Below are positions 3,350 through 43,409 of a DNA stretch of 48,198 nt, piece by piece. The DNA is from an uncultured Akkermansia sp. GTDB taxonomy: Bacteria; Verrucomicrobiota; Verrucomicrobiia; Verrucomicrobiales; Akkermansiaceae. Position 1 is the stretch's first letter; every line of letters starts with the position of its first letter. Location of the stretch: the NCBI GenBank assembly GCA_900548895.1, contig URLZ01000016.1, forward strand, positions 1-48,198, in the 5' to 3' direction. The position numbers were made by a program, and so were the translations under genes. The notes under the pieces are model-generated. The model was not told where the DNA came from. It did not search any database and saw only the letters and a list, made by a program, of their open reading frames with translations.

Positions 3350-4549
3350 TTACTTGATGAGGCCGAGCTCGCGGCCGGCCGTGGCGAAGGCGTCGATGGC
3401 GCGGTCGAGCTGCTCCTCGGTGTGAGCCGCCGAGATCTGCGTGCGGATGCGCGCCTGATCCTTGGGAACGACCGGGTAGAAGAAGCCCATGGCGTAGACG
3501 CCCAGCTCGAGCAGGCGGTCGCTCATCTTCTGCGAGAGAGCGGCGTCGCCGATCATGACGGGAACGATGGCGTGCCCGGCGCCGGCCAGCTTGAAGCCGC
3601 ACTGCTCCATGCCCTTGCGGAAGTAGGCGGCGTTGTGCTGAACGCGCTCGGTGAGCTCGGTGGAGGCTTCAAGCATGTCGAGCACCTTGATCGTCGTCGC
3701 GGCGATGGCGGGCATGACGCTGTTGGAGAAGAGGTACGGGCGAGCCTTCTGGCGCAGCGTGTCGATGATCTCCTGACGGGCCGAGACGTAGCCGCCGGAA
3801 GCGCCGCCGAGCGCCTTGCCGAAGGTGCCGCTCGTGATGTCGATCTTGCCGAAGAGACCGCAGTGTTCATGCGTGCCGCGGCCGCGCTTGCCGAGAACGC
3901 CCGTGGCGTGCGATTCGTCGAAGTGCACCAGAGCCCCGTATTTCTCTGCCAGCGCGTGAATCTTGTCGAGGCTCGCGATGATGCCGTCCATGGAGAAGAC
4001 GCCGTCCGTGGAGATGAGGATGGTGCGGGCGCCGTTGTCGCGCGCCTCGCGCAGCTTGGCCTCAAGGTCCTCCATGTCGTTGTTCTTGTAGCGGTAGCGG
4101 GCGGCCTTGCAGAGGCGCACGCCGTCGATGATGGAGGCGTGGTTGAGCGCGTCGGAGATGATGGCGTCCTCCTTGCCGAGCAGCGCCTCGAAGAGACCGC
4201 CGTTGGCGTCGAAGCAGGAGCCGAAGAGGATGGTGTCCTCCGTGCCGAGGAAGGCGCTCAGGCGCTCCTCAAGCGTGCGGTGCAGGGTCTGCGTGCCGCA
4301 GATGAAGCGAACGGAGGCCATGCCGAAGCCCCAGCGATTGATCGCCTCGCGCGCCGTCTCCTCCAGCACGGGGTTGTTGGCGAGGCCGAGGTAGTTGTTG
4401 GCGCACATGTTGATGACGCGGCTGCCGTCGCGCAGGCCGACCTCCGAGAACTGCGGGGTGTTGATGTAGCGCTCTTGCTTGAACAGACCCGCGGTTTTCA
4501 TCGCCTCGAGGTCTGCAACCAGTCTGTTTTTGAAATCGGTGTTGTACAT
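3350..4549 (-). CDS. kbl: Glycine C-acetyltransferase (2-amino-3-ketobutyrate CoA ligase)
   Basis: This PLP enzyme cleaves 2-amino-3-oxobutanoate with CoA to glycine and acetyl-CoA, the second step of threonine breakdown. At 399 residues it has the usual length. It belongs to the alpha-oxoamine synthase family: [10 protein letters not shown] near 51-60, His137 (LNHAS), Asp211 and His214 in FDESHATG, and the PLP lysine Lys245 in [13 protein letters not shown]. The partner threonine dehydrogenase (tdh) is not in this window. The start ATG lies 36 bases behind the -10 of a clear promoter; no Shine-Dalgarno sequence is visible. KBL is favoured over the ALAS/BioF/SPT relatives from overall sequence character. 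Confidence 0.92.
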
Positions 4550-4585
4550 AGCGTGGGGAAAGGCTGAGGTCGATCAGTCCGACGG

Positions 4586-4614
4586 ATTGTAGCCCCCCGA
4601 CCTTCCGCTGTCAA
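4586..4614 (-). promoter_or_regulatory. Sigma70-type promoter of kbl
   Basis: On the minus strand, TTGACA (4609-4614), 17-bp spacer, TACAAT (4586-4591). It predicts a leader of about 30 bases, so kbl is a leadered gene. Confidence 0.75.
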
Positions 4615-4628
4615 TGCGAAAAACATGG

Positions 4629-4660
4629 CGCCCCCGGCCTGCTGACACAGGCCGGGGGCG
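4629..4660 (-). terminator. Rho-independent terminator of the porin gene
   Basis: 12-bp stem CGCCCCCGGCCT (4629-4640) paired with 4649-4660, loop of 8. On the minus strand it is followed by a T-run (4621-4625 region). It lies about 200 bases past the porin stop. Confidence 0.7.
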
Positions 4661-4710
4661 TTGACGGAGCGGGGGTTGAGAAACCCCGCACCCCGGGGTT
4701 GCAAAATCCT

Positions 4711-4829
4711 GCGTCGCTAGAGTTGAGAAGGGTCGCGCTGCTAGAGTTGACAAGCCCGCGCTGCCGGGGGTCGAGACGAGGCGTGCTGTCAGGGTCGAGA
4801 AGAGCGCGCTGCCGGAGCTGAGAGGTCCT
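4711..4829. repeat. Degenerate tandem repeat, 23-25 bp period, five units
   Basis: Units start at 4711, 4735, 4758, 4783 and 4806. The consensus is about GCGCTGCYRGRGTYGAGAAG followed by RGC. The copies are diverged but still in register. The repeat fills the spacer between the porin stop and its terminator. No coding sense. Confidence 0.65.
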
Positions 4830-35102: not shown

Positions 35103-35115
35103 CGCCGCTCCTCTC

Positions 35116-36531
35116 ATGTTACAGGCCATCGAACACAGTCTCAGCGCCGCCAGCGGATTCCTGTGGAGCTACATCCTGCTCTTCTGCCTGCTGGGCACCC
35201 ACATCTACCTCACCATCATCCTGCGCTTCCCGCAGCGCTACTTCTTCACCGCCCTCAAACTCTACTTCGCCGGCAGCAACAAGAGCGAAGGCCACATCTC
35301 CCACTTCTCCTCCCTCATGATCTCGCTGGCCGCCAACGTCGGCACTGGCAACATCATCGGCGTCGCCGTCGCCGTCACCACCGGCGGTCCCGGAGCCGTC
35401 TTCTGGTGCATGCTCACCGGGCTCCTCGGCATGTCCACCCGCTACGCCGAAAGCCTGCTCTCCATCCGCTACCGCGTGCAGGACGAGCAAGGCCACATCG
35501 TCGGCGGCCCCATGTACGTCATCGAGCGCGGCATGAAATGCCGCTGGCTCGGCATCACCTTCGCCGTCCTCACCGCCATCGCCGCCTTCGGCATCGGCAA
35601 CATCACCCAGAGCAACGCCGTCGCGCGCGTCATGCAGGAATCCGCCCTCGGCATCCCCGGCTGGGCCAGCGGCGTCGTTCTCGCCCTGCTCGTCGCCCTC
35701 GTCCTGCTCGGAGGCCTCAAAGGCATCTCGCGCGTCTGCTCCGCCTGCGTCCCCAGCATGGCCCTCATCTACATGATCGGCTGCGGCATGCTCCTTGCCG
35801 CGAACGCCGAATACATCTGGCCCGCCATCCGCCTCATCTGCACCGCCGCCTTCACCGAGCAGGCCGCCGGCGGCGGCTTCATCGGCTCCTGCCTCATGCT
35901 CGCCATGCAAACCGGCTGCAAGCGAGGCCTCTTCTCCAACGAAGCCGGCATGGGCTCCTCCCCCATCGTCTCCGCCCCCGTGCGCACCCCGAACCCCGTC
36001 CAGCAAGCCCTCGTCTCCTCCACCGGCCCCTTCTGGGACACCGTCGTCATCTGCACCCTCACCGGCCTCACCCTCACCGTCGCCGTCATGGCCCACCCCA
36101 GCGTCGACTCCGAAGCCGGCGAAGTGCTCACCTACCACGCCTTCGCCTCCATGGGTGGCATCGGCACCCTCCTGCTCACCATCAGCCTCGCCACCTTCGT
36201 CATCTCCACCCTGCTGGGCTGGTCCTACTTCGGCGAGCGCGCCCTGCAATACCTCGGCGGCGTCAAACTCATCACCCCGTACCGCGTCCTCTGGGTCATC
36301 ATGACCTTCGTCGGCTGCATCGTCCCGCGCAGCTCCCTCGTCTGGGACTTCGCCGACATCGCCAACGGCCTCATGGCCCTGCCCAACCTCATCAGCCTCT
36401 TCGCCCTCAGCGGCACCCTCATCCTCTACACCCGGCACTACCTCTGGGAACACCGCCTCTACAAAGCCGATCAGTACCCGATCCCTCAGATTCGCGAACA
36501 GGACCGCGAACCGCTCCGCGACACACACTGA
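35116..36531 (+). CDS. Sodium:alanine/glycine symporter, AGCS family
   Basis: 471 residues, an inner-membrane sodium-coupled amino-acid symporter (alanine, glycine, possibly serine). Family signatures are SLAANVGTGNIIGVAVAVTT, GGPGAVFWCMLTGLLGMSTR, YAESLLSIRYR, GGPMYVIERG, GIGNITQSN and GLFSNEAGMGSSPI. About 11 membrane segments are seen. The start at 35116 is set by the promoter; the longer frame adds a Pro/Arg-rich segment unlike a transporter N-terminus. It fits the nearby serine/threonine-glycine catabolic genes functionally. No own terminator lies between its stop and small-RNA copy 1, whose hairpin may also end this message. Confidence 0.92.
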   Translation: MLQAIEHSLSAASGFLWSYILLFCLLGTHIYLTIILRFPQRYFFTALKLYFAGSNKSEGHISHFSSLMISLAANVGTGNIIGVAVAVTTGGPGAVFWCMLTGLLGMSTRYAESLLSIRYRVQDEQGHIVGGPMYVIERGMKCRWLGITFAVLTAIAAFGIGNITQSNAVARVMQESALGIPGWASGVVLALLVALVLLGGLKGISRVCSACVPSMALIYMIGCGMLLAANAEYIWPAIRLICTAAFTEQAAGGGFIGSCLMLAMQTGCKRGLFSNEAGMGSSPIVSAPVRTPNPVQQALVSSTGPFWDTVVICTLTGLTLTVAVMAHPSVDSEAGEVLTYHAFASMGGIGTLLLTISLATFVISTLLGWSYFGERALQYLGGVKLITPYRVLWVIMTFVGCIVPRSSLVWDFADIANGLMALPNLISLFALSGTLILYTRHYLWEHRLYKADQYPIPQIREQDREPLRDTH

Positions 36532-36559
36532 GCCAAGCTTTGCAGCCTGCAACCATTTT

Positions 36560-36583
36560 GAACAAGTAAGCGCCCGAGTTGTC
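36560..36583 (+). promoter_or_regulatory. ECF-like promoter block of small-RNA copy 1
   Basis: TTTTGAACA with GAAC at 36560-36563, 16 bases, TGTC at 36580-36583. Same spacing as copies 2 and 3. No TATAAT-like -10 at normal distance. Confidence 0.5.
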
Positions 36584-36589
36584 TCATAT

Positions 36590-36712
36590 CGTATCAGGGT
36601 CTTTCGGCGAGCGGTGAGGGAGAGAGCAGCGCTCGCAGGCATCGGAAAGCCCTTGAGAAACACAGGTCGTGAACGGAGCCGCCGCCGGGACATCCCGACG
36701 GCGGCTCTTGAG
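36590..36712 (+). ncRNA. Putative small RNA, copy 1 of 3
   Basis: Approximate transcript from about 36590. The 5' hairpin GCGAGCG (36607-36613) pairs with CGCTCGC (36630-36636) around a 16-base loop containing GTGAGGGAGAGAGC, the conserved purine-rich motif. The end is a 14-bp terminator-like stem with one mismatch (36676-36689 with 36694-36707, loop ACAT) and only a short T-run. It is the most diverged copy: the middle region differs from copies 2 and 3. It starts about 60 bases behind the AgcS stop, so it could also be a 3'-UTR product of that gene. I see no coding potential conserved with the other copies. Confidence 0.65.
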
Positions 36713-36849
36713 CCTAACCCCACCATGTAGAGAACAATCACTCCTGCCGGTTATGGTAAAAAGAGCTGACAACGAGACGATAGCGGAAAATATCAGGAAT
36801 CAATGCGGCTGCCTGACAGAAAAAAATGACCCTCCCGTCTCTTTTTTTT

Positions 36850-36873
36850 GAACATTTGCGCTGCTGCGGTGTC
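36850..36873 (+). promoter_or_regulatory. ECF-like promoter block of small-RNA copy 2
   Basis: A run of T residues, then GAAC (36850-36853), 16 bases, TGTC (36870-36873). Preceded by an A-tract/T-tract pair (GAAAAAAATGA..., TTTTTTTT) that recurs before copy 3 and could act as an UP element. Confidence 0.55.
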
Positions 36874-36879
36874 GCACTT

Positions 36880-37001
36880 GTGTCGGTTCTTCCGGCGAGC
36901 GGTGAAGGAGAGAGCGCCGATCGCCAAGAGAAGGGAGGATCGAGTTTCATAGGTAGTAAGTTGGAGCCACCGTCGGGGCAACCCGACGGTGGCTTGCTTT
37001 T
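36880..37001 (+). ncRNA. Putative small RNA, copy 2 of 3
   Basis: About 120 nt. The 5' hairpin GGCGAGCGG (36894-36902) pairs with CCGATCGCC (36917-36925), with one G-A mismatch, around the loop TGAAGGAGAGAGCG. A 40-base unpaired, purine-rich segment follows (AAGAGAAGGGAGGATCGAG...). The terminator is GCCACCGTCGGG (36966-36977), loop GCAA, with CCCGACGGTGGC (36982-36993), then TTGCTTTTG. Seven of about 118 bases differ from copy 3, all in stems or the terminator loop. GGA occurs repeatedly in unpaired regions, reminiscent of CsrA-sequestering RNAs, but that is speculative. Confidence 0.75.
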
Positions 37002-37151
37002 GAGAGAGTATTGAGAGAGTTCGGGCATTCTCCGTCTTTTCTGCAGGAAATCGATTGCCTTCGCATAGAGAGCAAAGCAGCGTTACCGCCCTCCGTGAGG
37101 CCTGAGATAACCTGAGAACGAAAAAAAATGAATTAATCGCTGACTTTTTTT

Positions 37152-37175
37152 GAACATTTTCTCGCGAGCCGTGTC
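37152..37175 (+). promoter_or_regulatory. ECF-like promoter block of small-RNA copy 3
   Basis: T-run, then GAAC (37152-37155), 16 bases, TGTC (37172-37175). A TACACT follows at 37176-37181, but 20 bases from the TTGAAC, too far for a standard sigma70 pair. Confidence 0.55.
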
Positions 37176-37181
37176 TACACT

Positions 37182-37303
37182 TTAACGGTTCTTCCGGTGA
37201 CCGGTGAAGGAGAGAGCGCCGGTCGCCAAGAGAAGGGAGGATCGAGTTTCATAGGTAGTAAGTTGGAGCCACCGTCGGGCCTGCCCGGCGGTGGCTTGCT
37301 TTT
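37182..37303 (+). ncRNA. Putative small RNA, copy 3 of 3
   Basis: About 120 nt. The 5' hairpin GGTGACCGG (37196-37204) pairs fully with CCGGTCGCC (37219-37227). Where copy 2 has a G-A mismatch this copy has a C-G pair, and copy 1 a G-C pair: covariation that supports a real stem. The loop TGAAGGAGAGAGCG and the following 51 bases are identical to copy 2. The terminator is GCCACCGTCGGG (37268-37279), loop CCTG, with CCCGGCGGTGGC (37284-37295; one G-U pair), then TTGCTTTTG. No gene follows on this strand, so it is not a leader or riboswitch. Confidence 0.75.
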
Positions 37304-37499
37304 GGGAGAGACGCTCGTCGGAAAGCGTCCGCCAAGCCTCTGCGCAGCACCCGCAGGTGTACCTGCTCGGACGTATCGGCGCCACGTTACGGCGACAGAG
37401 CAGGGGACTCTCTGCCGGCTGCGGCATGCCAGTCGGCGCCCCGGTCGGCGCTCGCCTCCCGTTTACCTCACCGCAGGTCTTTCGGCGCTGCCCCGCCGC

Positions 37500-43324: not shown

Positions 43325-43409
43325 CCCCGACGGGCGGTGCGCTTTGTGCAATCTTGAACGGAGTTGCCGCCGTGCCGGTCATACCTTAACAACAAACAAT
43401 ACTACGCAT

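Follow-up and report, generated by a model that had tools for sequence, protein, structure and literature searches.

A multi-copy structured RNA family of Akkermansia with a putative stress-type promoter in common with clpB

Background

Small RNAs of the enterobacterial sigma-E response (MicA, RybB) work with Hfq and lower omp mRNAs, and RNAs of the CsrB/RsmZ type carry many GGA loops. Small RNAs of a membrane-stress ECF sigma response are described for Salmonella (PMC1804206), and MicA works with Hfq (PMC3551931). In Listeria, LhrC1-5 are five copies of one sRNA, which are induced by envelope stress and act on lapB mRNA without needing Hfq, so that multi-copy sRNAs can act on mRNA without this protein (PMC4132741). 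SigH/SigE promoters of C. glutamicum read GGAAC-N17-18-cGTT, and for Corynebacterium a -35 GGAA(C/T) and a -10 GTT at 17-19 nt are given; the corynebacterial SigH/SigE regulons include clpB, dnaK, and trxB1, and sigH is rarely autoregulated in Corynebacterium (PMC10012870). For Akkermansia, neither an sRNA of its own nor one of the kind described below was found in the literature searched (with few subscription papers and no bioRxiv preprints, and including a part of PMC4782308), and the main text of PMC8040213, on structured RNAs in human microbiomes, does not mention the genus.

Results

Three copies in the window

The window, i.e., the whole stretch of 48,198 nt of Akkermansia DNA that was analysed, holds three tandem elements behind a symporter gene (Table 1), as reported in a preliminary description made from the sequence alone. 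The hairpin regions start at 36597, 36885, and 37187 (spacing 288 and 302 nt), and GAAC-N16-TGTC was found before each at identical spacing (36560-36583, 36850-36873, and 37152-37175). The seven differences that had been counted between copies 2 and 3 were recovered within 36885-37002, with one more past the terminator (37003/37305), and the 5' stem position given as G-C, G-A, and C-G in copies 1, 2, and 3 was read likewise. The description also stood for the hairpin loop and the terminator of each copy and needed correction for copy 1, which is diverged and lacks the invariant tail that is common to copies 2 and 3 and also present in most relatives. Fold z-scores against dinucleotide shuffles were -3.56, -6.22, and -5.46 for copies 1, 2, and 3, respectively. 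Copies 2 and 3 were training members of the 55-sequence covariance model (CM) that gave the scores in Table 1; copy 1, outside the training set, was recovered at E = 2.3e-11 over 0.65 Mb, the model's E-values being rough.

Table 1. Features of the array and its upstream gene in the window (CM, covariance model)
Feature	Position	Strand	Evidence
Sodium:alanine/glycine symporter (AGCS), upstream of the array, start approximate	35113..36531	+	PF01235, E 6.1e-125
Copy 1, promoter-like element: TTGAAC 36558-36563, 17-nt spacer, GTC 36581-36583	36558..36583	+	sequence
Copy 1 of the RNA, diverged	36588..36718	+	CM 60.3 bits; inverted repeat; sequence
Copy 1, loop AGGGAGAGAG (kept; invariant tail lost)	36617-36626	+	
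Copy 1, terminator arms (kept)	36676-36690/36693-36707	+	
Copy 2, promoter-like element: TTGAAC 36848-36853, 17-nt spacer, GTC 36871-36873	36848..36873	+	sequence; family promoter
Copy 2 of the RNA, predicted 5' end near 36880	36877..37006	+	CM 125 bits; fold z -6.22
Copy 2, loop AAGGAGAGAG, closing pair G36904-C36915	36905..36914	+	(nearly) invariant columns of the 55-sequence alignment; fold
Copy 2, single-stranded tail TTTCATAGGTAGTAAGTTGG	36945..36964	+	(nearly) invariant columns; unpaired in the consensus structure
Copy 2, intrinsic-terminator-like hairpin with T-rich end	36965..37001	+	perfect 13-nt inverted repeat; helix covaries family-wide
Copy 3, promoter-like element: TTGAAC 37150-37155, 17-nt spacer, GTC 37173-37175	37150..37175	+	sequence; family promoter
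Copy 3 of the RNA: loop 37207-37216, tail 37247-37266, terminator 37267-37296	37179..37308	+	CM 124.6 bits; fold z -5.46

The window's AGCS symporter is 86% identical to that of locus L001, which places the window near Candidatus A. intestinigallinarum within Akkermansia, and a RecQ-like helicase gene beside the array lies on the opposite strand. Part of the copy 2 tail (AGGUAGUAAGUUG, 36951-36963) resembles animal let-7 with a different seed, which we take to be a coincidence.

Structure and covariation of the family

By BLAST and a motif search over 65 symporter loci, the same element was found in more than 20 Akkermansia loci. It comprises about 120 nt: a covarying 5' hairpin with a purine loop, a conserved single-stranded tail of 20 nt, and an intrinsic terminator. 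An alignment of 55 sequences, which were selected by the tail pattern, yielded a consensus structure of 30 base pairs. Covariation, for which a check had been proposed in the preliminary description, was strong, with changes on both sides in 27 of the 30 pairs and a score of 0.736 against 0.254 +/- 0.011 in shuffled alignments; the observed values were attained by none of 500 shuffles. Paired cells amounted to 92.1% in the consensus structure, as opposed to 66.6% after shuffling and 41-50% when partners were slid. In the terminator helix, the sequence changes almost fully and pairing is kept (both-side changes in 13 of 14 pairs). Best conserved are two unpaired parts, namely loop AAGGAGAGAG and tail (G)TTTCATAGGTAGTAAGTTG, while the stems and the terminator vary; conservation of the tail is partly preselected, as the rows were chosen by it, yet tail and loop recur in CM matches not chosen in this way. 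In more distant paralogues among the CM matches, the loop mostly retains GAGAG and the tail TTCATA...GGTA, and small insertions occur in the stretch that separates them. Taken together, structure, family, and distribution (see below) identify the elements, at the level of sequence comparison, as a structured non-coding RNA family. No known family had been recognised in the preliminary description, and this agrees with the Rfam scans, in which only tRNAs exceeded the gathering score in the window and RNase P was the sole match in 11 relative loci.

At L140:4148-4224 and L119:3850-3933 (- strand), tail and terminator occur without the 5' hairpin loop and may be remnants or a minimal form; matches of 84-95 nt recur in several genomes. 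Two further diverged copies with a GAGAGAGA loop and a TTTTTCATAGGTAGTAGTAGCT tail lie near L383:572 and L385:558 (- strand match; genomes G060 and G076) and are absent from the listed model matches; the counts given here probably underestimate the family. In one locus of presumed A. muciniphila (L102), a copy with a sigma70-like promoter (4131-4258) stands about 107 nt before the gene for RNase P RNA (4366-4785).

Distribution

Matches to the covariance model, between one and six per genome, were obtained in 72 of 76 Akkermansia genomes; the 12 genomes presumed to represent A. muciniphila or a close relative had 4 to 6 each, some of them as tandem pairs. Searches with stricter filters, which lose weak matches, returned 72 of 260 genomes at family level, all among the 76 Akkermansia (0 of 184 other Akkermansiaceae), and 66 of 386 at order level, all from the Akkermansia set. 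Homologues in relatives, for which a search across Verrucomicrobiota had been proposed, were thus found, within the order sampled, in Akkermansia only. One contig titled Clostridia bacterium (locus L008) carries an Akkermansia-type symporter together with a copy of the RNA and is possibly mis-binned.

Promoter of the RNAs

An ECF-type -35 GAAC and -10 GT(C/T), spaced by about 16-19 nt, are present before all three copies in the window. For the family, promoters were read in 115 distinct copies, which were selected by tail and loop patterns and leave out tail-less copies such as copy 1 of the window. By pattern, a TTGAAC-like -35 precedes 102 of them (exactly TTGAAC in 80), including one at L014 that is probably miscalled, the other motif being present in its close relatives; of the remaining 13, a sigma70-like TTGATT/TATATT arrangement precedes eight and another upstream motif five. 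A scan of 1.29 Mb of Akkermansia DNA with a weight matrix derived from 94 family promoters gave 99 matches, namely 90 at these RNAs (largely its training set), one at a further copy, and eight at other sites, compared with six matches, not de-duplicated, of the reversed and complemented matrices; within this sample, the motif is therefore rare outside the RNAs. The genus-wide pattern search was noisy (117 matches in 76 genomes vs 59 of the reversed control, summed counts). Since single pattern matches are noisy, weight was put on recurrence at orthologous genes and on a test at clpB. In its two elements the promoter resembles the ECF-type SigH/SigE promoters.

Two other sites were observed. 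In the window, TTGAAC...GTCATACC at 43354-43400 scores 17.4 with the sRNA matrix and lies upstream of the ORF MRKTLCILSALATSVAFA, a probable exported protein. At L275-L278, L285, and L286, an ORF that starts with MTPQHTKI... has a structured leader, before which the RNA promoter pattern is found; we take this ORF to read like an integrase/recombinase.

Recurrence at clpB and other stress genes

The clpB test covered the best 30 clpB loci from 74 matching genomes, with none of the presumed A. muciniphila genomes among them; the gene start was located in 16 of the 30 loci at first, and the test was then repeated on all 30. By eye, TTGAAC was found 34-40 nt before the start in 30 of these best 30 loci, and 26 of the upstream regions scored at least 12 with the weight matrix, whereas such a score was reached by 4 of 761 control regions, taken from upstream of ORFs that had been called mechanically. 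The four loci failing the matrix (L372, L374-L376) still show TTGAAC, and in eight of the best 30 the -10 reads GCATC rather than GTC. Apart from clpB, the pattern recurs at DJ-1 (5 loci), at a family of probable exported proteins (7 loci), and at one thioredoxin gene; a second thioredoxin gene with the motif came from the matrix scan. An FKBP-isomerase-like (L243), an endopeptidase-like (L252), and a truncated ClpB hit (L258) fell below the NCBIfam curated cut-offs. The ECF-like reading of the promoter is strengthened by its recurrence before clpB, and comparison of the upstream regions indicates a promoter common to the RNAs and clpB. The stress promoter of a major heat-shock chaperone seems to turn on the RNA genes as well.

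A conserved ACTTCGCATAAT box stands directly before the clpB TTGAAC in the 30 loci read (L347-L376) and is possibly the site of an extra regulator. Candidate ECF factors exist, given that five sampled genomes encode 4 to 6 sigma70-region-2 proteins each. In 25 sigma loci of five genomes, with ORFs roughly called, the motif was not directly upstream of any sigma gene, so that no autoregulated ECF gene was found in this sample.

A sister family

Six of the promoter-pattern matches belong to RNAs with different 5' hairpins, followed by a related tail near TTTTTCATGTA[AG]TTTCAGAGTTG and then a terminator. The tail UUUUUCAUGUA(A/G)UUUCAGAGUUG, with at most three mismatches, was found in 27 of the 76 Akkermansia genomes (centre of each of the loci L317-L346), and TTGAAC lies 40-125 nt upstream of it in 30 of 30 loci among the matches listed. 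All four genomes lacking the first family (G029, G038, G041, G045) contain this sister family, so that each of the 76 has at least one of the two. The tail module UUUCAU...GUUG is related in both.

Searches bearing on the mode of action

Hfq (PF17209) was detected in 0 of 73 genomes and in 5 of 14 control genomes by a search that could miss a very divergent Hfq; for CsrA/RsmA (PF02599), 0 of 73 genomes and 3 of 14 controls were positive. An antisense pattern of the tail (ACTACCTN{0,3}ATGAAA) matched 131 times in the 73 genomes vs 16 times for the reversed control, mostly on RNA genes. Counts were split by spacer type and against the lists of RNA matches, and 30 matched loci as well as nine others were inspected singly. 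These nine, all exact matches outside the RNA lists, comprised two further copies of the RNA, three apparent tail fragments, and four elsewhere, two of which lie at possible gene starts, both confined to a single genome. For loop and tails, duplex energies with 400 of 651 sampled gene-start regions did not improve on those of shuffled motifs (rank 18-27 of 40). A long antisense pairing with a common mRNA was set aside for the regions covered, as neither pattern search nor duplex energies were above chance. SD mimicry by the loop was rejected as a conserved function: some paralogues have GAAAGAGAGAG, GGAACGAGAG, or GAATTTGAGAG loops, which have only GAGAG in common. Carriage by phages was rejected also, the tail 20-mer being without exact match in IMG/VR viral contigs.

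Discussion

The explanation that we judge probable as a whole is that the elements are independent sRNA genes under a stress promoter, i.e., the ClpB-type ECF promoter, and most likely act in trans. Each copy would be a small non-coding RNA gene of its own with promoter and terminator, transcribed from the TTGAAC-N17-GTC promoter of ECF-sigma type that is common to clpB; with this promoter, RNA synthesis would belong to the response to protein damage, heat, or thiol stress in which clpB takes part. Transcription, sigma type, and stress induction are here predicted from sequence comparison. Duplication would have led to up to six copies per genome, with loop and tail held nearly constant and stems drifting. 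With its structured 5' end, conserved single-stranded stretch, and terminator, the RNA has the shape of trans-acting sRNAs, and it would in trans present loop and tail to mRNAs, by which a sigma factor that can only activate would also repress genes during stress. The shared chaperone promoter suggests such a job, like that of the sigma-E sRNAs. The interpretation in the preliminary description, a paralogous sRNA family with ECF-like promoters, is supported in that none of the testable counter-findings it had named appeared.

With Hfq and CsrA undetected and the antisense and duplex tests at chance, pairing with mRNA is rated at slightly short of an even chance, and binding to a hypothetical protein is thought less likely still. 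A trans-acting regulator is favoured, with a protein-binding RNA as its serious rival. According to the latter, the GGAGAGAG loop and the UUUCAUAGGUAGUAAG tail would be sites for an Akkermansia protein that binds RNA and is neither Hfq nor CsrA, and the stress-induced copies would soak it up as CsrB/RsmZ do with CsrA, more copies raising the dose. It would fit this that paralogues at unrelated loci have retained two long unpaired stretches, and so would several copies per genome, a sister family whose tail is related and whose 5' part differs, the antisense signal at chance level, and the failure to detect Hfq in the 73 genomes. Against it, the obvious partner CsrA was equally undetected in these genomes, each RNA has one GGA-type loop rather than a repeated array, and the partner protein is hypothetical. 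We hold titration less likely than not as an account of the family. A wider version, which we regard as doubtful, would give Akkermansia a riboregulatory system of its own, with at least two multi-copy families, the UUUCAU...GUUG tail by the terminator, the ClpB-type ECF promoter, and a hypothetical RNA-binding protein. If true, stress-induced RNAs acting by titration or as matchmakers would form a new class, in a genus without detectable Hfq or CsrA.

The elements could instead be cis-acting leaders (riboswitches or attenuators), whose terminator controls the downstream gene; the terminator hairpin at their end would suit this, and so would the copy just upstream of a symporter gene at locus L019. 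We consider it very improbable. Flanking genes differ among the copies (symporter, aroA, hisI, truB, or fmt, names read from translations), those downstream lie on either strand and often on the other one, as RecQ does in the window, and each tandem copy has its own promoter-like element. Over the array, the best sub-threshold Rfam match was rnk_leader with 23.9 bits vs a gathering score of 50. A position at most 400 nt downstream of an AGCS gene, seen for 24 of the 105 distinct copies with enough upstream sequence, is a favoured site and not a rule. The earlier verdict that this is not a riboswitch therefore agrees with the variation in neighbouring genes.

That the elements are repeated DNA, e.g., a mobile or recombination sequence, and no RNA genes might be argued from several copies per genome at places that differ between species. 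Compensatory changes in stems and terminator, the promoter-like element kept at near-fixed spacing, and the IMG/VR result speak against it, and covariation largely refutes it unless the functional form is single-stranded DNA folded into this structure, so that the chance left to it is very slim. Just as improbable, and largely refuted, is a small protein encoded by the elements, for which an SD-like AAGGAG in the loop and + strand open frames (62-122 aa) that span copies 2 and 3 could be cited. In these two copies no ATG comes after the SD-like loop, the changes seen in stems are compensatory, and the loop-to-tail distances of the 115 distinct copies are spread over all three frames (48/45/22 modulo 3), i.e., the conserved frame named in the preliminary description as a counter-finding was not found.

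What is new, as judged from these comparisons, is a genus-specific, multi-copy sRNA family under putative stress-sigma control, with a tail module related in two families. The much-studied gut commensal Akkermansia now has a genus-wide RNA family and a promoter to go with it, for the testing of which the stress genes clpB, thioredoxin, and DJ-1 provide a set. The question posed is how conserved sRNAs work in a Gram-negative genus without detectable Hfq or CsrA.

Comparison with known systems

Among the described systems, the sigma-E sRNAs share with the Akkermansia RNAs the position of small RNAs under a stress ECF sigma factor, which for the latter is a prediction. They use Hfq, whereas in Akkermansia Hfq was undetected in 73 genomes, the target is only hypothetical, and the Rfam scans gave no match. 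Likeness to CsrB/RsmZ lies in the GGA of the hairpin loop and in a sub-threshold Rfam match to PrrB_RsmZ (11.8 bits vs 44, E 4.9); these RNAs have many such loops in contrast to one loop per Akkermansia RNA, and CsrA was undetected in the 73 genomes. The LhrC copies are driven by LisRK and have CU-rich sites, unlike the Akkermansia RNAs with their purine-rich loop and ECF-like promoter. To the Corynebacterium SigH/SigE system, the similarity is in the -35 and -10 elements and in clpB as a member of the regulon, with the Akkermansia motif reading TTGAAC-N17/18-GTCnnACC and the sigma factor being a candidate only. The best matches found for the Akkermansia motif are largely the RNAs themselves and clpB.
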